Shown: positions 44,836 to 56,326 of the stretch, piece by piece | How positions within the stretch are numbered: position 1 is the stretch's first letter | How the letters are laid out: each line of letters begins with the position of its first letter | DNA from: Enterobacter cancerogenus | Lineage (GTDB): Bacteria > Pseudomonadota > Gammaproteobacteria > Enterobacterales > Enterobacteriaceae | DNA: 64,000 bases | Reading direction: 5' to 3' | Assembly: GCA_000773965.1 (NCBI GenBank) | Contig: JRUP01000038.1 | Location: 47,390 to 111,389 of the forward strand | Notes under the pieces: generated by a model | Told to the model about the DNA's origin: nothing | The model's input: the letters and a program-made list of their open reading frames with translations, nothing else | Database searches by the model: none | Made by a program: the position numbers and the translations under genes

Positions 44836-44931
44836 GAAGTGGGTCCTCGTTAATGTTCGGACAGGGATCGTTGCCCTGGGCGGTGGATTCTACTGAAATT
44901 CTGTCGACTGCGAAAGCCGCGGGATCCTGCG

Positions 44932-45191
44932 GTTTAAAAGAAAGGATCTTTATTCTTTTATATGATCTCTCTGTTAGATCTCTTATTAGGATCGCCAGGG
45001 TCTGTTGATAACCCGGAAAAGCAATGTATTAACAGAGCATTAGAGAGGATCGCTTGCTGTGAATGATCGGTGATCCTGATCCGTATAAGCTGGGATCTAA
45101 ATGGCGACTTATGCACAGATGAAAAAAGCAGCACGGGTTATTATTGGGATAACTACCGGTTATACGCAAGATTAAGGCTATGTTATCCACA
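44932..45191. other. oriC: Chromosomal replication origin oriC
   Basis: The mnmG-mioC gap aligns along its length with E. coli oriC. Three contiguous 13-mers form the AT-rich unwinding element: L 44945-44957, M 44964-44976 and R 44977-44989, all beginning GATCT. DnaA boxes are R1 TGTTGATAA (45003-45011), R2 TTATGCACA (45109-45117), R3 TTGGGATAA (45144-45152) and R4 TTATCCACA (45183-45191). There are ten GATC sites for Dam/SeqA, and the conserved stretch TGAATGATCGGTGATCCTG is intact. R1 differs from the usual strong box TGTGGATAA at one base. No DnaA titration locus lies nearby. Confidence 0.97.
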
Positions 45192-45276
45192 GATAACGGC
45201 GTAAAAAAAACAATAAAATAGCGAAATAAACTGGGGATCGTTCACTTTTCCCGATCCCCAACCGGCAAAGATCGTC

Positions 45277-45871: not shown

Positions 45872-46333
45872 TTATGGCTTGATGGTGCGCATGATCGGGT
45901 TTTGCAACGAGATCAGGGTTTCGGTGGACTGGATTTCATCAATGGTCTGGATCTTGTTGATCAACACCTGCTGTAGCGCATCGATGGAGCGACACATCAC
46001 TTTAATAAAGATGCTGTAGTGGCCGGTGGTGTACCAGGCTTCCACCACTTCATCCAGCGCCTCCAGCTTGCTGAGGGCTGCGGGATAATCGCGCGCGCTT
46101 TTCAGAATGATGCCGATAAAGCAGCACACATCAAAGCCCAGCTGACGCGGGTCGATTTCCACGCGGGTGCCCAGAATGATGCCCGCCTGGCGCATTTTTT
46201 CCACGCGTACGTGAATGGTGCCGGGGCTGACGTTGAACTGTTTGGCGAGCTCGGCATACGCCGTACGCGCGTTTTCCAGCAGCGCATTAAGAATGCCGCG
46301 ATCAAGGTTATCCAGTTGCAGTTGTTCCGCCAT
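45872..46333 (-). CDS. asnC: Transcriptional regulator AsnC (Lrp family)
   Basis: A 153-residue feast/famine regulator. The N-terminal helix-turn-helix (about 20-52, TAYAELAKQFNVSPGTIHVRVEKM) and C-terminal RAM ligand domain ending ISLQNPIMRTIKP are almost identical to E. coli AsnC. In E. coli it activates the divergent asnA when asparagine is low. Here asnA is absent and an ovoA gene lies upstream on the same strand, so its remaining targets would be itself, mioC and mnmG. Start 46333 gives the best RBS spacing; the preceding ATG (46336) is also possible. Confidence 0.95.
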   Translation of the reverse strand: MAEQLQLDNLDRGILNALLENARTAYAELAKQFNVSPGTIHVRVEKMRQAGIILGTRVEIDPRQLGFDVCCFIGIILKSARDYPAALSKLEALDEVVEAWYTTGHYSIFIKVMCRSIDALQQVLINKIQTIDEIQSTETLISLQNPIMRTIKP

Positions 46334-46403
46334 CATCCATCCTCTTTGAGTTCTTCTTCTATGAACAGTGGAGAATGTGCAGCAAATTAGCAGTGCAGGC
46401 AAG

Positions 46404-46443
46404 GTGCAGACCGCGTGCGAGCCGCAGTCTGCACGCTTTTTTT
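46404..46443 (+). terminator. Orphan + strand terminator at the ovoA 3' end
   Basis: GTGCAGAC (46404-46411) pairs with GTCTGCAC (46427-46434). An inner TGCG/CGCA stem is present, and a run of seven Ts follows on the + strand. The T run overlaps the ovoA stop codon. No + strand gene precedes it: asnC and ovoA both run on minus. Confidence 0.8.
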
Positions 46444-48604
46444 ATCGCTTACGCCAGATTGTGAGCTGCGCTTCGGTATGTTGATACTTGCGCGCCGTCT
46501 CGCGGATCACAAACGGCACATCCTGCGGCGGCACCACTTCTTCAAAGGCATCACGCAGCAAACGCTGCAATGCCTGATAGGTCGTCAAAGCTTCACCGTT
46601 CTCACGCACGCCGCCCAGCCAGTTCTCCTTCGGCGTGAAGTCCTCCAGCCAGGTATAAGGCGACGAAAGCACCAAAAGTCCGCCAGAGCGGATCATCGGG
46701 ATGACGTCCTGCAGGAAACGTTTTGGCTGACGCAGACGATCGATCAGGTTTGAAGCCAATACCAGATCGTAACGTTCCGGCTGAGGTTTAAGATTACAGG
46801 CGTCGCCCTGCACAAACTGAATGCGCGCCGATTGCTCGTCACTAACATTGAAGTCCTTCAGACGCACCTGGCGATATTCCACCAGCTCGCCCTCTTCCGG
46901 CACCACATAGCGGAAGTCCTCACCGGAGGTCAGCTGCAGCGCCACATCAATAAAGCGTGCGGAATAATCCATGCCTGTGACCGTCGCGAAATGGCGTGCC
47001 AGTTCAAAACTGGCACGGCCGGTCGCGCAGCCGAGATCCAGTGCCGCACCACGTTGTTTGCAGTGCGGCAGCAGTTTTTCCACCAGCGCCACGGCGTAAT
47101 TCGGCACGTTGTAATAGCCTGGTCCGTACTGGAAATCGAGATACTGCGACACCATGCTGTCGGTTTCGTACGGATTAAGGGCCATAGTTTCTTGATGTGA
47201 GGAGACCACATAGCGGAAACCGGCGTGCTGGAAGAAATGACGACGGAAGGCATAACGAGCCGATTTTAACGCCTCGTTGCCGGTGGAAATCCAGCTGCCA
47301 CCTTTGATCAGCGCGTGTTTTCCGTCGAAGGTCGGCGTCGAGAAATCGTCATACAGCGGATGGACTTTGAAACCCTCGAAGCCATTGGTCGGCGTTGTGG
47401 TCCACTGCCAGACGTTGCCAACAATGTCGAAAAACTGACCCTGCGCAAAGCGATCCACAGGACTCGATGAAGCCCAATAGGCCAGATTGATATTGCCGGG
47501 CGCCTCGATCCAGTCGGGCTGATCGCCGCTCACTTGCTCGCGTAGCTGCATCCATTCAGCTTCACAAGGGAGTTGAATAGATTTACCCGTCTCTTCCGCC
47601 AGCCAACGACAAAACGCGGCGGCTTCAAGCTGATTCACTTCCGCTGGCCAGTCCCACGGCATGGCCACTTCCTCAGCCATTAAGCGCAGTTTCAGCTGAT
47701 CGGGTTGCGTAATCTCGCCGACCCAGAAGGTGGGCATTTGCGCGCCAGAGAATTCACGCCAGCCCCAGCCTTCCTCATCCCACCAGCGTTGATCCTGATA
47801 GCCGTTAGCGGCGATAAAGCGATAAAACTCGGCGTTGCTGACCAGCATTTTACTGGCCTTAAATGGTTTGAGTTCAGTTACCTGATTGCCGTATTCGTTA
47901 TCCCAGCCGTAAGTGTCATCCGTTTTGCCTTGTTGCACGCGACCGCCAGGCATCGCAATCAGCGAGTTATCCGGAACCGATGCGCGATCGTGGCGCGCCT
48001 GCGGACAAACCGGCCAATGCGCCTGCGGGGTTACCCATTCGATCGGTAGCTGGCGGATCAGCACGCTGGAGGTTTCCAGGTGGATACGCTCATGTTCAAT
48101 GCCCATCAATACCACCCACGCCGGGCTTTCCCACGTGATCGGCAGTTCCAGCGGCATGGTGCGGATAAAATCGCTCACCAGGTTTTTGACTTTTCCACGG
48201 TAGTCACGCACCTCTTCGACCGTCGGCCAGGCGTAATGGCTGTCGTTGAGATCGTCCCAGCTCATCTCGTCCACGCCGATTGCCATCATGGCTTCGATGC
48301 GATCGTCCACGCGGTTGTCCAGATAGCGACCCGCCATCAGCTTATTCATATAGAACGTAGCGGTGTGGCCAAAGTAGAAGATCAGCGGATGGCGCAATGA
48401 GATCGCTTTGTTAAAATACGCGCGTTCGTCGGCAAGGCAATCAAACAGGCTTTCGTACAGCTCCCAGGTTTGGGTGAAATACGCCAGCAGCTCGCTCCGT
48501 TTTTGTTCGGCGTTTTGGCCGGAGAGCTGCAAAGTGCGGGTCGGTGCAGGAAGTTGGGCGGTGTTCACAAGATGCTCCAGATGCTCAGTGTGCGAACTAT
48601 TCAC
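46442..48604 (-). CDS. ovoA: OvoA, 5-histidylcysteine sulfoxide synthase / mercaptohistidine methyltransferase
   Basis: A 720-residue fusion. The DinB-like helical domain carries the non-heme iron ligands H80 (FGHTATFYMNK) and H171-x3-H175-x-E177 (EHERIHLET). Next comes a formylglycine/sulfatase-modifying-factor fold (about 210-465) with Tyr418, close in number to the Tyr417 studied in the Erwinia tasmaniensis enzyme. A C-terminal SAM methyltransferase has LDLGCATGRA at 522-531. OvoA joins histidine and cysteine with O2, the first step to ovothiol, and methylates the product. The start is GTG at 48604; a GTG at 48568 has a better GGAG site. It follows viaA by 30 bp. Confidence 0.95.
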   Translation of the reverse strand: MNSSHTEHLEHLVNTAQLPAPTRTLQLSGQNAEQKRSELLAYFTQTWELYESLFDCLADERAYFNKAISLRHPLIFYFGHTATFYMNKLMAGRYLDNRVDDRIEAMMAIGVDEMSWDDLNDSHYAWPTVEEVRDYRGKVKNLVSDFIRTMPLELPITWESPAWVVLMGIEHERIHLETSSVLIRQLPIEWVTPQAHWPVCPQARHDRASVPDNSLIAMPGGRVQQGKTDDTYGWDNEYGNQVTELKPFKASKMLVSNAEFYRFIAANGYQDQRWWDEEGWGWREFSGAQMPTFWVGEITQPDQLKLRLMAEEVAMPWDWPAEVNQLEAAAFCRWLAEETGKSIQLPCEAEWMQLREQVSGDQPDWIEAPGNINLAYWASSSPVDRFAQGQFFDIVGNVWQWTTTPTNGFEGFKVHPLYDDFSTPTFDGKHALIKGGSWISTGNEALKSARYAFRRHFFQHAGFRYVVSSHQETMALNPYETDSMVSQYLDFQYGPGYYNVPNYAVALVEKLLPHCKQRGAALDLGCATGRASFELARHFATVTGMDYSARFIDVALQLTSGEDFRYVVPEEGELVEYRQVRLKDFNVSDEQSARIQFVQGDACNLKPQPERYDLVLASNLIDRLRQPKRFLQDVIPMIRSGGLLVLSSPYTWLEDFTPKENWLGGVRENGEALTTYQALQRLLRDAFEEVVPPQDVPFVIRETARKYQHTEAQLTIWRKR

Positions 48605-48634
48605 TATAGCAAATAAGCATTTCTGCCAGATGAA

Positions 48635-50095
48635 TTAGCGTTTCCAGCGGCGCAGCAGGCGGCTTTTCAGTCCGGTATCGAAGCGCCAGATATGATCGAA
48701 GATACGCAGAATGCCCGGTTTACCGTGAAGCGACATCGCCACCGCGTGGAAACGTTGTTGATGCTGGCGCTGGCGTTGCTTGATAGCGTTGATGGTGTCA
48801 TCCGGTAAACGCTGGGCGATAAAATCCGACACGATCACCGCATCGGCCTCATCCCATACGCTGCCCTCCATACGTTTAACCACCGCAGCAAGGCAAGCCG
48901 CCAGATCGGTGCCACCACGAAAACGTTGGCTAAGAAAACGGATAGCCTGCTCAATGCCGCTATCGGCAGTGAGTTCGTAGCCAATCACTTCGTGAGCGAA
49001 CAGCATGATGTAGCAGCGGCGCTTATCGGCTAATGCCACCTTCAATAACGCAAGGCAAAAGGCCTTGGCGCAGCGCTCGTTAAATCCGCCCATGGAGCCT
49101 GATGTATCGACACAAACAATAAAAGGGCCGCGCGGCTGCGCTTCATGTTGCTGGTGGCTGACCGGGCGCAGTGTGACTTTCTCGTGCCAGGCATCACCTT
49201 GTAACTGGTAAGTCAGCAGGCGTTTTTCTACCAGGCGACGATAAAATTCCAGCTCCAATTCGCTAATACTCAATGCAGCCAGTTCGGGCGGCAGCAAGCG
49301 CAACACATCGTCGCTCTGATGAATGCCGCTGACCTCTTCCGGCACATGATCGGGCTCACGCACCAGTTGGTGAAATTCTTCCAGCGGTGCATCCTGCGAA
49401 GGCACCGATTTGGCTTCGCGGCTGCGGCCCAACTGCTGCGCCAGTTTCATTAATTCCGGCTGCTGTGCGAGGAAATCGCCATATTGCACAATCAGCTCAT
49501 AATCACCGTGCTGAAGTGACGCTTTGCTCATATCCCACAAACGTCCGGCTGCGGCTTCATCATCGTCGGTAAGGATTGGCGCCAGCTGGCCACTGATTGC
49601 CATCCGTTGCTGCAGTTCGGCCATCAGACGTTCGCGCTGCTCCTCAAGAAGGGTTTCGTTGAGCGTGAGCGTTTGCAGCGTCAGGCTGAGTCGCCAGCGT
49701 TGCAAAAACAGCGTGTGCTGAGCATTGCTCAGTTGTTCAGCTTCGTTGTGCAGCAGCAGTTTGCTGGCTTCTTCGAGAAATGGCGATGGCAGGTTTTTTA
49801 GCTGCGACATGATGTGGGGAAGCTGGTGGCTGAAATCCTGCGTGCTGATCAATTGCATTTGCTGAAACAGCTGAAACTCCTGCGCCAGCGCTTCCGGCAC
49901 CGGCGTGGTTTTCATCTGTTCCGCGATTTCAGTGCGCCAGCGGGGTAAATCGCGCATTAAGGCTTGTTTCATGCGCGGAAATTTTTCAAAGAACAGCGCC
50001 AGCTGTGGCGACGCGAGCAGGGCCAGAATCAACTCTTCGATTAACTCCGTTTCGCCAATCGATAACAGCGTGCTCAGCGTCTCCAGTGAGATCAT
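48635..50095 (-). CDS. viaA: ViaA, VWA-domain partner of RavA
   Basis: A 486-residue protein with a helical N-terminal half and a C-terminal von Willebrand A domain. The MIDAS motif D330-T-S332-G-S334 is intact ([11 protein letters not shown]), followed by [12 protein letters not shown] and VIVSDFIA. ViaA stimulates the RavA ATPase; the pair acts on respiratory complexes and lipids and sensitises cells to aminoglycosides in E. coli. Its ATG overlaps the ravA stop by 4 bp. An ovoA gene continues the transcript direction 30 bp downstream. Confidence 0.96.
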
Positions 50096-51588
50096 TTACG
50101 CGCCTGTTTCAGCTGTTCTGCCACATCCTGCAGGCTGGTTTCAATACGTGCCAGCCAGTCATCGCTGATAAACAAGCAGCGCTGGTGCTGGCTAAACAGC
50201 GTGCGCTGTGCGCGGAGCTGGGTATCCAGCGCTTCGTATTCATCCTGGATTTCCTGCGGCATGTCGCTACTGTTGCTGGCTCCGGGCAACGTTAAGCGTG
50301 TGGATTGCAGGCTGACATCGCGTAGCGTCAGGCAGTGATGCGCATCCACCAGCAGATCCAGCGTCTGGCCAAAACCAATGCCATTCAGTTTGCCGCGAAT
50401 TTCACCGCCTTTAATCAGCCACTGGGTTAAGGCTTCACGGGCAATCAGCACATGCGTCACTTGCATGTCGTGCAGCGTTAACGGCTGTTGCAGCATGAGC
50501 GTCAGTTGTTCATCGCTGATGGCAGCAGGCAATTCGTAATGGGGTTTGCGGCTAAACATACCGCTGTGTTTCTCCAGCGTCAGCGCTTGTGCCACGCTCT
50601 GCTGCTGTTGCAAGGCGAGACGACGTGCTTTGATCTGCTGCAGTTTGTGCAGCAACGCCTGCTGTTGCCAGGCGTGCTGCGTCATCAAAGCATCAATTTC
50701 GCGATCCAATAGCTGCATCGATGCGACGTCATGCCACAGGCAATCCTTGAGCAGAATCAGATCGATCGGCGCAATGGTCACGCGGCCACTGTAAAACGCA
50801 CTGGCCTGCAGCAGATGAATCGCTTTTTTCCAGCGGCGATCGGAAATGTAAGGTGCGCTGGGCAAATTCTCCAGTTGCTGACGCAGTTGGTAAATCAGCT
50901 CAAACACATGGTCAGGTAAGGAGACCTGGCTGATGCCTTTCTGCCACTGGTGATACTCTTCATCACTGATGCGCAGCGCTTCCGTCACCGGATTATCATT
51001 TTCGTCCTGCTGGTGGGTGAGCATGCTGCGGAAGTTCTGCTTCTCATGCACGTTATCCAGCCATAGGCGAATCAACATGCGATCATACAAGGCTTCCAGC
51101 CCGCTATCGGCCTCCGGCAATTCGTTGGAAGCGGTCACCAGCAGGCGCATCGGAATCTTTTCTTCGCTGTCGCCATTGCGAAAGCGGCGTTCGTTGATGG
51201 CGGTGAGTAAGGTGTTCAATATCGCCGGGCCGGCTTTCCAGATTTCATCAAGGAAGACGATTTCGGCATCCGGCAGATAGCCTTTGGTTAATCGCTGATA
51301 ACGACCTTCATCTTTTAACGCCTGAATCGACAGCGGGCCAAACACTTCTTCAGGGGTAGAAAAACGGGTCATCAGGTATTCAAAGGCGCGGGCGTGTTGG
51401 AAGGCGTATTTCAGGCGGCGGGCAATCAAGCTCTTGGCAATGCCGGGCGGCCCCAGTAAAAATACGCTCTCGCCACTCAGTGCAGCTAATAAGCACAGGC
51501 GGATCGCATGATGCCGTTCATACAGCCCTTTCTCCAGGGCGTTACTCAGGCGAGAAATTCTTTCTGCCAAAAGATGGGGTTGAGCCAT
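50092..51588 (-). CDS. ravA: RavA, MoxR-family AAA+ ATPase
   Basis: A 498-residue AAA+ protein forming hexamers that bind inducible lysine decarboxylase LdcI and work with ViaA. Walker A is GPPGIAKS (46-53), Walker B is [10 protein letters not shown], sensor 1 is [14 protein letters not shown], and the triple-helical LARA region lies in the C-terminal part. The ATG at 51588 gives the family N-terminus [18 protein letters not shown] two codons upstream (51594) has the better spaced AAGGA, so the protein may be two residues longer. Confidence 0.96.
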
Positions 51589-51887: not shown

Positions 51888-53756
51888 ATGAGCTCGGATA
51901 AGAAGCAGTCCCTTGGCGCAGTCACACTCGCCGCGATTGGCGTGGTGTATGGCGATATCGGTACCAGCCCGCTCTATACTTTGCGTGAATGTCTCTCCGG
52001 TCAGTTCGGCTTTGGCGTAGAACGCGAAGCGGTATTTGGCTTTCTCTCGCTGATCTTCTGGTTGCTGATTTTGGTGGTATCACTGAAATACATCAGCTAT
52101 GTGATGCGTGCCGATAACGCCGGTGAAGGCGGGATACTGACCTTGATGTCACTGGCCGGGCGCAATACCGGCGCACGTGCAACGGCGATTCTTGTCATCA
52201 TGGGGCTGATCGGTGGCAGTTTCTTCTATGGTGAAGTGGTGATCACGCCCGCCGTCTCGGTATTGTCGGCGATTGAAGGGCTGGAGATTGCGGCACCGAG
52301 CCTGGATGCGTATATCGTTCCGCTTGCGATTGCAGTGCTGACGCTGCTGTTTGTGATTCAGAAGCACGGTACCGGCATCGTGGGTAAGCTGTTTGCGCCG
52401 GTGATGCTGGTGTGGTTTATCATTCTGGCCGTGCTGGGCGCGCGTAGCATCATCAGTAACCCTGATGTGCTGCATGCCATGAACCCGTATTGGGCGATGC
52501 ACTTCTTTATCCAGTACAAAACGGTGTCGTTCTTTGCGCTCGGTGCGGTGGTATTGGCCATTACCGGTGTGGAAGCGCTGTATGCGGATATGGGTCACTT
52601 CGGCAAATTCCCGATTCGTCTTGCCTGGTTTATCGTGGTGCTGCCCTCGCTGGTGCTGAACTATTTTGGTCAGGGCGCGCTGCTACTTAAACATCCCGAA
52701 GCGATCAAAAACCCCTTCTTCCTGCTGGCGCCAGACTGGATGCTGATTCCCATGCTGATTCTGGCGACGCTGGCCACGGTTATCGCCTCGCAGGCGGTGA
52801 TCTCTGGTGTGTTCTCCTTAACACGTCAGGCGGTGCGTTTAGGCTATCTGCCGCCGATGCGTATTGTGCATACCTCGGAAGAAGAGTCGGGCCAGATTTA
52901 TATTCCAGTGATCAACTGGCTGCTCTACTTCTCCGTGGTGATCGTGATTGTTGGCTTTGAGCACTCCAGTAACTTGGCGGCGGCTTACGGCATCGCGGTA
53001 ACCGGCACCATGGTGCTGACTGCGATTCTCTGCTCCACGGTGGCAATTCAGAACTGGCACTGGAACCGTTATCTGGTGGTGCTGATTCTGATTGGCATGC
53101 TGTGTATTGACGTGTCCTTGTTCTCGGCAAACCTGGTCAAAGTGTTCTCCGGCGGTTGGCTGCCGCTGACCCTGGCACTGATGATGTTTATCGTGATGAC
53201 CACCTGGAAAAGCGAGCGCTTCCGCCTGTTGCGTCGTATGCATGAGCACGGCAATTCGCTTGAAGCGATGATCGCTTCGCTGGAGAAATCTCCGCCGGTA
53301 CGCGTGCCGGGCACCGCAGTCTATATGTCGCGTGCCCTGAACGTGATCCCTTTTGCCATGCTGCATAATCTCAAGCACAACAAAGTGCTGCATGAGCGTG
53401 TGGTACTGCTGACGCTACGTACTGAGGATGCGCCTTACGTGCACAATGTGCGTCGCGTTACCATCGAACAGCTGTCGCCGACGTTCTGGCGCGTGGTGGC
53501 GAGCTACGGCTGGCGTGAAACTCCGAACGTGGAAGAAATTTTCCACCGCTGCGGGCTGGAAGGTCTCAACTGCCGCATGATGGAAACCTCATTCTTCATG
53601 TCCCATGAATCGCTGATTATCGGCGATCGCCCGTGGTATCTGCGTCTGCGCGGCAAACTGTTCCTTGCGCTGCAACGCAATGCGCTGCGTGCGCCGGATC
53701 AGTTTGAAATCCCGCCTAATCGCGTGATCGAGCTGGGCACGCAGGTCGAGATTTAA
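51888..53756 (+). CDS. kup: Low-affinity potassium transporter Kup
   Basis: A 622-residue KUP/HAK/KT family K+:H+ symporter with twelve membrane helices, starting [34 protein letters not shown] and [20 protein letters not shown] are family signatures. The cytosolic C-terminal domain (about 430-622) is complete. Length equals E. coli Kup. Single-gene unit. Confidence 0.98.
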
Positions 53757-53768
53757 GGATTAAGCGCG

Positions 53769-55100
53769 TCACCAGCTCAAGGTGACGCGCAAGCCTTGAG
53801 GCTGCACATGGCTGAATGTGATGCGAATACCGTGCAGTTGCGCAATGTTTTTCACAATCGATATTCCTAAACCGCTGCCCGTTTGCGTTTGCCCCGGCGG
53901 TCGCCAGAAACGCTCACCAAGGCGCGCAAGCTGCTCATCGCTAACGCCTGACCCGTTATCTTCAATAATTATCGCCCGCGCGTTTAACGTGAACTGAATC
54001 TGGCTTCCCGGTGGCGCATAGCGCAGCGCGTTATCCAGCAGGTTACGCATCAGCAAATTCAACAGCAGAGGATGACCGTTCATCACCGGTTCGGCCTGTG
54101 CATGCAATTGCAGATCCATCTGCTGCGCCTCGGCCTGTGGAAAATGTTCTATCAGAAGCTTTTGCAGCAGCGGTGCCAGTGGCACCGGCTGAAATTCGCT
54201 GCGCAGATCGTCCGCTTCCACTCTTGATAGCGTCAAGAGTTGATCCACCAGCCGTGTGGCGCGCTGGATGCCGCTATCAAGCTGCTGCAATGCCCGTTTG
54301 CGCATTGCTTCGTCATCATCCGCCAGCTGAATCACCTCACTCTGCACGCGCAGTGCAGCTAACGGACTGCGCAGTTCGTGCGCCGCATCGGAGGTAAAAC
54401 GGCGCTCGCGCTGCACGAGTTGCGCCATACGGTGAAACAGCCCGTTTAATGCCGCCACCAACGGCTGCACCTCTTTGGGCAAGCGTGCTTCGTCGAGCGG
54501 TGTGGCGTCATCGGGTGCTCGCAACTGGAGTGATGCCGTCAGGCGCTTTAGCGGGCGCAATTCGAACCACACCAATGCCAGCAGCATCAGCAGCATAAAG
54601 GGCATGGCGTAAAGCCACGGCATCAAACTCGCCAGTGCCAGATCGCGCGTCATATCGTCGCGGTATTCCCACTCCTGGCCCACCACCACGCGATATTGTT
54701 TATCAGCAGAAGTCAGCCAAAGCAGCCGCCAACTGTCATCGTCGCCGCGCAGACGACCCTCGCGAAAACCGTCACGCTTATCATCAAACTGCATATCGCG
54801 CCCGTTCTCGCCATCGTTAAGCAACGGCTGGCCGTCCGCACGGAAAATGGCAAACGCCAGTGCATCATCATCCTGATCGCCGCGGTGATGGCGCAAAATG
54901 GATTTGGTTTTTGGCAGAGAGGCGGCGTGCAAGCTGGTGGGATCGAGTGACAGCAGGCGTTTGGCAAACAGCATTTGCTGGGTATCGAATAGCTCATTAA
55001 CGGTATCGCGGGTCTGATGCCAGGCGCTGTAACTGGCCACCCCACCGCACAGCGCAATCAGCAGCACAAAGCCGATGGCGAGTCGTAGAAACAGACTCAT
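53769..55100 (-). CDS. qseC: Sensor histidine kinase QseC
   Basis: A 443-residue membrane kinase: TM1 about 5-24, a periplasmic sensor region, TM2 about 160-180, HAMP, then the H box with His241 ([14 protein letters not shown]), the N box [14 protein letters not shown], and G boxes EDNGSGV and GSGLGISIV. With QseB it controls motility and virulence genes in relatives. Pairing with qseB and the divergent ygiW matches E. coli. It overlaps the qseB 3' end by 4 bp. Confidence 0.92.
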
Positions 55101-55759
55101 TCTGCCGCACCGAGTGTATAACCCACGCCGTGAACGGTACGAATAAACGCTGTGCCGAGCTTTTTGCGCAGATGATGAATATGCACTTCTACTGCGTTGC
55201 TGGAGACATCGTCATCCCAGCTGTAGAGTTTTTCCTCCAGCTGGCTGCGGGTTAGCACGCGACCTGGATTGCGCATAAACAGCTCCAGCAGCGCCAGTTC
55301 ACGGCTCTTCAGGCTGATGGTTTCGCCGTCAATCCAGACGCTGTGGCTGCTGGGCGACATCACCACCTTGCCGTGTTTCAACTCGGGCTGAAGTTGTCCA
55401 TGACGGCGGCGAATCAGCGCCTGTAAACGCGCGGCGACTTCAGCGAGCGCGAAGGGCTTACACAAATAGTCGTCAGCGCCTGACTGTAATCCTTGTATGC
55501 GGTGCTCGAGCGCATCGCGTGCGGTGAGGATCAGCACGGGTACATCTGCGCCCTGCTCACGCCATTGACGCAGGATCTCCAGCCCATCGCGCCCGGGCAG
55601 CGAAAGATCCAGTACCACGGCATCCCAGGGTGCGGCCGATAAAGCCTGAAATCCCGCTTCGCCTGACACGAACCAGTCAACGCTGAAGCCGAGTTTCGTT
55701 AGCCCGACTTTCAGGCCATCGCCAATCAGCGTGTCGTCCTCGATCAATAATATGCGCAT
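55097..55759 (-). CDS. qseB: Response regulator QseB
   Basis: A 220-residue OmpR/PhoB-type regulator. Receiver phosphoacceptor is D51 ([10 protein letters not shown]), with E8/D9 acidic pocket and K in DYLCKPFAL. The winged-helix DNA-binding domain ends [16 protein letters not shown]...VRGVGYTL-like (here [13 protein letters not shown]). The ATG at 55759 follows AAGGAG by 7 nt. PmrA (BasR) is the nearest relative, but the ygiW neighbour favours QseB. Confidence 0.93.
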
Positions 55760-55857
55760 GTGTTTCTCCTTGAGTGCAAGAGTCGTTATACGAAGCAAAA
55801 ATCCGCTTGTACAGCGTCAATCGCCGCAGATTGGCTATTTTTCGTGTTTTTTTACCC

Positions 55858-55874
55858 CTTAAGATCCTGTTAAG
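55858..55874. promoter_or_regulatory. QseB/PmrA-type direct repeat upstream of ygiW and qseB
   Basis: CTTAAG (55858-55863) and GTTAAG (55869-55874) are in direct repeat with an 11-bp period. This is the usual architecture for QseB and PmrA boxes, and it lies between the divergent qseBC and ygiW genes. Confidence 0.65.
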
Positions 55875-55930
55875 AACCCTATGCTGTAATAGCCTCCGTA
55901 TTCCACACATTCATGGAACAGAGGTGAAAA

Positions 55931-56326
55931 ATGAAAAAGAGTGCAGCGTTAATCGCGATTATTATGTTGGCTTCTACGCCGGTTCTGGCCGCACAACAGG
56001 GGGGATTTGTTGACCCGAGTGCGCCAAAGGCTCAGGTTCACGCAGGTGGCTTCCAGGCGGATAACACCAGTGTAGTGACCGTTAAGCAGGCTGAAGAGAT
56101 GAAAGACGACAGCTGGATCACCGTGCGCGGTTATCTCGATAAGCAAATCGGCGATGAGGATTATCTGTTTCGTGACGGTAGCGGCAACATGAAAGTGGAA
56201 ATCGACCATAAGCGTTGGCACGGACAGACCATCACTCCGAAGGATCAGGTTGAACTGACCGGCGAGTTGGATAAGGACTTTAATTCCATTGAGCTGGACG
56301 TTAAACAGGTCCGCAAGCTGCCATAA
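55931..56326 (+). CDS. ygiW: YgiW, periplasmic BOF (bacterial OB-fold) stress protein
   Basis: A 131-residue secreted protein. The signal peptide (1-20) is cleaved after TPVLA, followed by a single OB-fold of the YgiW/YdeI family: [53 protein letters not shown]. Relatives bind peptidoglycan or contribute to stress tolerance (VisP in Salmonella). Divergent from qseB as in E. coli and probably under QseB control. Confidence 0.93.

Follow-up and report, generated by a model that had tools for sequence, protein, structure and literature searches.

Does an ovoA gene that directly follows ravA and viaA on the same strand form an operon and a functional unit with them, or is it a gene of its own that has settled beside this pair? 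We have addressed this question with a stretch of 64,000 nucleotides from Enterobacter cancerogenus (assembly GCA_000773965.1, contig JRUP01000038.1, positions 47,390 to 111,389; hereafter the window), in which ravA, viaA and ovoA are followed by asnC (Table 1). With a probability of roughly 0.7, we favor the reading that ovoA is a portable, self-contained gene that occupies the interval between viaA and asnC (the "slot") under its own promoter and is perhaps also read through from ravA-viaA. A single entry into this interval would have taken place no later than the common ancestor of those sampled Erwiniaceae that carry ovoA. The gene would have arrived with its own extended -10 promoter, which sigma-S probably recognizes, wholly or partly, and in most species also has a 3' hairpin of its own. 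The promoter, rather than an operon, would then be the part kept by evolution. What the sequences themselves establish is the identity of the genes, one clade of slot OvoA, a conserved element and the loss of asnA; activity of the promoter, its use by sigma-S, termination, read-through and ovothiol production are inferences from them.

The gene product matches both the N- and the C-terminal NCBIfam equivalog models of OvoA above cut-off (TIGR04344 and TIGR04345) and aligns to the solved structure 8khq with 824 bits over residues 11-707 of 708. A histidine-rich EHERIH segment is identical in this alignment, and we take its histidines to be the iron ligands. To see where such genes reside, we scanned genome contigs for OvoA and kept the best 80 of 131 relatives as named loci, leaving out 51 weaker ones; neither E. 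amylovora nor E. tasmaniensis was looked for by name. The genes ravA-viaA-ovoA-asnC stand in the same order and on the same strand in 47 of these 80 loci, which belong to Pantoea, Erwinia, Winslowiella and Izhakiella plus one record labelled Enterobacter ludwigii. The arrangement is thus common to several genera instead of being unique to this strain, as the first-pass annotation had allowed for, and an order found family-wide is therefore not due to chance. The E. ludwigii record (L010) groups with Pantoea by its OvoA and shows the locus typical of Pantoea, and is probably a mislabelled genome. No ravA or viaA was found in the fetched flanks of the other 33 loci, which come from Rahnella, Ewingella, Rouxiella, a Serratia, Hafnia, Yersinia massiliensis, an uncultured Enterobacterales bacterium and, in 18 cases, Aeromonas.

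The OvoA tree places all 58 slot rows on one side of a branch with a Shimodaira-Hasegawa-like approximate likelihood ratio (SH-aLRT) support of 97, in a tree where three to four rows have long branches, and this topology fits a single entry into the slot. In a family survey of 198 genomes sampled from a larger group, 31 had any OvoA match and 17 had one above cut-off, with ovoA adjoining viaA in 12 of these 17. One genome deep among the slot species (G111, beside G154 with support 1.0) has kept ravA-viaA and has no ovoA, as is also the case for G130 and G064, whose placement is weak (0.072); the tree of neighboring genes was midpoint-rooted and has L047 on the outgroup side (0.997). At another locus, L145 (G113:C1:3230000-3246000), viaA is followed by ovoA and the fetched stretch holds no match to AsnC, MioC or MnmG.

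The start of ovoA decides what lies between it and viaA. The first-pass annotation had reported that the three genes run in one direction with a 4-bp overlap and then a 30-bp gap, and that a weak -10 might give ovoA a start of its own. Shared direction and overlap (ravA with viaA, at 50092-50095) stand, and 30 bp is indeed the distance from the viaA stop to the longest ovoA open reading frame (ORF; 46442-48604, minus strand), but not to the likely start codon. Conservation of the first 12 codons of this frame ends at close relatives, stop codons soon interrupt the upstream frame in slot loci, and loci L011-L014 have an in-frame stop after the end of viaA and before the next GTG. Because these codons are not conserved and the frame is interrupted in these loci, comparison among relatives makes GTG 48568 the most likely start, which would leave a gap of 66 bp. 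We rejected a start at 48604, which is not conserved and overlaps the -10: the hexamer at 48603-48608 shares bases with the start codon proposed earlier (48602-48604). The viaA-ovoA interval spans 66-95 bp in 44 of the 47 named slot loci and is longer in L027 (266 bp), L064 (1731 bp) and L045 (3581 bp).

Within this interval, 51 of 58 slot loci contain an exact copy of the extended -10 element TGCTATAGT, and 54 contain it if one mismatch is allowed. In shuffled upstream regions, exact copies averaged 0.01 (largest 1) and copies with up to one mismatch 0.54 (largest 4), where shuffles, here and in the hairpin tests below, preserve base content only and start codons for the motif count were chosen by a script whose picks for L145 and L064 look wrong. 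After removal of three rows with OvoA identical to named ones, 48 of 55 loci still match exactly. The flanks of the element have diverged, with a mean top-base frequency of 0.45 over 45 columns downstream and 0.61 over 35 columns upstream; this alignment comprises the 48 of 55 loci already matching the motif, so that only the flank values are informative, and leaves out L019, L020, L084 and L064 (no match to three spellings) as well as L047, L146 and L147 (our own filter). Where viaA has no ovoA next to it, TGCTATAGT was absent from all 18 viaA ends examined, from 17 genomes plus one E. coli. This conserved, promoter-like element speaks for a promoter of ovoA's own; what had been called a weak -10 is better described as a conserved extended -10. 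In two of the three loci with inserts, L027 (ca. 200 bp) and L045 (3.6 kb), the element has stayed on the ovoA side. The L027 insert (L027:6749-6950), between viaA and the element, has inverted-repeat-like ends, and that of Erwinia oleae (L045:3404-6985) contains an open frame of 1108 amino acids that looks secreted and protease-like by eye. Before ravA, a TG.TA.A.T element occurs at least once in 3 of 49 loci, and shared 9-mers there include AAAAAGCTG (44 of 49).

A related sequence accompanies ovoA at a different genomic site. Twelve of 15 other enteric ovoA loci have an exact TGCTACACT 40-42 bp before the ATG, two differ from it by one base, and Y. massiliensis is without it, as are all 18 Aeromonas loci. 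This sequence resembles the sigma-S consensus of a chromatin immunoprecipitation sequencing study, TNTGCYAAACTT, including -13C, which that study counts as a sigma-S determinant (PMC4447067). The window element agrees with TNTGCYAAACTT (-17 to -6) at T-17, TG, -13C, Y-12 and A-11, but not at -8 and -6. In our reading, sigma-S probably contributes to recognition of the proposed ovoA promoter. In E. coli, ravA-viaA itself is described as mainly sigma-S-dependent under aerobic conditions and as linked to iron-sulfur assembly, cysteine and iron genes (PMC3893208), and as also under Fnr (PMC9489729). Use of one sigma factor by ovoA and ravA-viaA would allow parallel regulation without a shared transcript.

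The first-pass annotation had further held that ovoA replaces asnA. Absence of asnA extends genome-wide, with no TIGR00669 match in the 5.67-Mb, 101-contig genome by a search that does find E. coli asnA as a control. Among 117 sampled genomes with ViaA above cut-off, 82 have asnA, at most 200 bp from viaA in 80, and the 35 without asnA comprise 15 with and 20 without ovoA. No slot genome has asnA (0/12 vs 82/105 of the other viaA genomes), as would be expected if a single event had exchanged asnA for ovoA and causally tied the loss of one to the gain of the other. However, in the annotated E. coli chromosome asnA separates viaA from asnC and runs in the opposite direction to viaA, 20 of the 117 viaA genomes lack both genes, with viaA at most ca. 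300 bp from asnC in the 14 of these 20 that were fetched, and two genomes with ovoA elsewhere (G024 and G169) keep asnA beside viaA. In all 17 asnA-less genomes without slot ovoA that we fetched (these 14 and three with ovoA elsewhere), viaA is at most ca. 300 bp from asnC. The interval thus tolerates loss of asnA without ovoA, and replacement of asnA by ovoA as such is not supported. We rejected a direct swap on grounds of orientation and frequent loss of asnA alone, and we consider a causal tie between the two events improbable.

Hairpins bear on whether ovoA might also be read from ravA-viaA. Directly after ovoA, 49 of 55 slot loci have a hairpin of z < -2, its stem sequences being unrelated between groups, which suggests a transcript end there, whereas after viaA a hairpin of z < -2 appears in 5 of 49 loci. 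With no conserved hairpin between them, transcripts of ravA-viaA may therefore continue into ovoA. This pattern would also suit a working operon, with ovoA transcribed mainly from ravA-viaA and all three proteins acting in a common stress response, as would the same strand, the small distance between viaA and ovoA (44 of 47 named loci) and the sigma-S dependence and metabolic links of E. coli ravA-viaA cited above. Yet ovoA has a conserved promoter-like element of its own, has been retained in loci where 3.6 or 1.7 kb of inserted DNA part it from viaA, is missing where ravA-viaA is kept (G111, G130 and G064) and sits elsewhere in 33 of 80 named loci. Overall, an operon of this kind seems unlikely to us, and the idea that ovoA depends chiefly on ravA-viaA transcription is not supported, given an element that was kept across two inserts. 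On the plus strand at 46401-46450, GCTTTTTTTAT follows the hairpin and could halt transcripts running away from asnC; a terminator on this side is possibly a relic of an asnA unit.

Adjacency had also been taken to hint at a functional link between RavA-ViaA and OvoA. Such a link is not supported: ravA-viaA is kept without ovoA, 33 of 80 ovoA loci have no ravA or viaA in the fetched flanks, and the order kup-ravA-viaA-asnC-mioC is retained in 17 of 17 fetched genomes without slot ovoA. This block is static with or without ovoA, and lasting adjacency therefore says little about function. The expectation that OvoA uses non-heme iron, together with the position of ovoA next to ravA-viaA, might suggest that RavA-ViaA acts as an iron-insertion chaperone for OvoA, by analogy to NorQ/NorD for nitric oxide reductase. 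Such MoxR-VWA pairs reportedly are required to insert non-heme iron (PMC9976466). Against it, 33 of 80 named loci have OvoA but no linked ravA-viaA, although the pair may be present at another site in their genomes, as is the case in five of the 17 sampled ovoA carriers; we judge a chaperone role highly improbable. A broader scheme, for which we see little likelihood, would have an ancient sigma-S-type promoter travel with ovoA between sites in Enterobacterales and, in Erwiniaceae, settle behind the sigma-S-linked ravA-viaA. Such a double coupling through sigma factor and read-through could let RavA-ViaA tune the supply of iron, cysteine and S-adenosylmethionine (SAM) to OvoA, by analogy to E. 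coli, where RavA-ViaA is tied to iron, cysteine and metK (SAM) genes.

Several observations weigh against a self-contained ovoA with its own sigma-S promoter. The motif TGCTATAGT was picked after viewing the sequences and the loci are related; it is lost in the third insert locus (L064), and three Pantoea stewartii-type loci have two extra bases inside it. A scan for -35/-10 consensus promoters did not list the element because it has no clear -35, and the window copy deviates from TNTGCYAAACTT at -8 and -6, as well as at -10 if W is not accepted there. None of the 18 Aeromonas ovoA loci has a match of 8/9 to the element. The short interval in 44 of 47 named loci is equally predicted by an operon, and the hairpin after ovoA in the window has no U-run on the ovoA strand and a T-run on the opposite strand.

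As for the product, a two-domain OvoA would combine a non-heme iron sulfoxide synthase with an N-methyltransferase and, together with a C-S lyase encoded elsewhere, should give ovothiol A. In E. tasmaniensis, the lyase OvoB converts the sulfoxide and OvoA does the methylation (review, PMC9103826). A search for ovoB elsewhere in the genome, as proposed earlier, yields an OvoB-like candidate on another contig (C23, 24706-25842), a PatB-type C-S lyase with 420.8 bits to TIGR04350 (cut-off 340). Its best PDB match is 5z0q (601 bits, next 263), an entry named only aminotransferase that we take to be OvoB. Near full-length relatives of at least 46% identity occur in 15 of 17 ovoA carriers, the exceptions being G113 with a copy broken by internal stops and G115 with a fragment and weak matches only. 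Relatives of at least 60% identity are found in 13 of 25 genomes without ovoA, which were hand-picked rather than drawn. The OvoB-like lyase is hence commoner with ovoA, but not specific to ovoA carriers.

Other routes to OvoB were rejected. By eye, no aminotransferase-like gene adjoins ovoA in nine non-slot loci, and a Pfam scan of nine neighbors found no aminotransferase but a phage-integrase-family protein (two loci), JmjC, colicin immunity, GNAT, alcohol dehydrogenase, two regulators and a phosphotransferase system (PTS) protein. Two AAT-like proteins (L119 and L120) have aspartate aminotransferases as best PDB matches. A promoter common to ovoA and the OvoB candidate was not apparent either, with no TG-TA-A-T in the last ca. 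70 bases before 20 candidate genes and one lone, chance-like match at -100 in L179. The phage-integrase-family proteins lie upstream of ovoA in Ewingella/Rahnella loci (L044:4631-5743 and L056:5712-6836), and ORFs of L051 and L061 have N-termini that resemble theirs by eye; such neighbors may bear on how ovoA moves.

Table 1. Features of the ovoA locus, in window coordinates.
Feature	Position	Strand	Evidence
asnC, next downstream, approximate start	45872..46342	-	NF008384 296.9 bits (cut-off 227)
Hairpin just 3' of ovoA stop, possible 3' end or terminator	46401..46438	-	-25.4 kcal/mol, z -3.27
ovoA, most likely coding sequence, 708 amino acids, GTG start	46442..48568	-	TIGR04344 689 bits (cut-off 400) and TIGR04345 313.5 bits (cut-off 170); start inferred from relatives
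GGAG, proposed ribosome-binding site for GTG 48568	48575..48578	-	sequence
Extended -10 element TGCTATAGT, proposed ovoA promoter	48603..48611	-	exact in 51/58 slot loci, at most one mismatch in 54/58
viaA, VWA partner of RavA	48635..50095	-	NF008230 788.8 bits (cut-off 500)
ravA, MoxR AAA+ ATPase	50092..51588	-	NF010054 927.9 bits (cut-off 681); Pfam LARA and RavA C-terminal domains
kup, divergent neighbor of ravA	51888..53756	+	NF008015 1277.7 bits (cut-off 883)

Both RavA and ViaA are assigned by equivalog models above cut-off, and the gene downstream of asnC is mioC (NCBIfam NF006531, above cut-off). The gap between mnmG and mioC (44836-45276) has two exact TTWTNCACA boxes (45109 and 45183), as expected near oriC. 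Going by E. coli, we presume that oriC lies in this gap, which would place ovoA at most ca. 2 kb away. On the other side, sensor kinase-like, response regulator-like and small exported-protein-like ORFs (by eye) occupy 53769-56326 between kup and an rbsD-like ORF, unlike in E. coli, where kup adjoins rbsD. Elsewhere, the N-terminal model of OvoA gave three weak matches clustered at G000:C13:69572-72630, one of them interrupted by a TAA; these are probably other FGE-sulfatase-type proteins.

These results recast a suggestive operon as a testable regulatory unit, for which we propose a specific promoter element, a different start codon and one point of entry, at a locus where ovoA is the only gene so far tied to ovothiol. 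They also advise caution against inferring function from adjacency in a near-origin block of nearly fixed order. In the literature that we searched, which excluded most subscription papers, bacterial ovothiol physiology is little studied, neither the ovoA promoter nor the slot arrangement is described, and nothing joins ViaA with ovothiol or ovoA with Enterobacterales. Erwiniaceae, the source of the first characterized bacterial OvoA, that of Erwinia tasmaniensis (PMC8623360), would be a convenient group for asking when ovothiol is made.

Compared with known systems, the OvoA of the window has the domain order of its E. tasmaniensis counterpart (DinB-like, FGE-sulfatase-like and C-terminal methyltransferase), and close relatives from the same family occupy the same slot. 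The ovoA genes of Rahnella, Ewingella, Rouxiella and Hafnia belong to the same protein family and have the TGCTACACT-type element as counted above for enteric loci, but lie at another genomic site with no ravA, viaA or asnC in the fetched flanks. Finally, kup, ravA, viaA, asnC, mioC and mnmG follow each other as in the kup-ravA-viaA-asnA-asnC-mioC-mnmG block of E. coli, whereas asnA is gone here and its interval is occupied by ovoA on the viaA strand.

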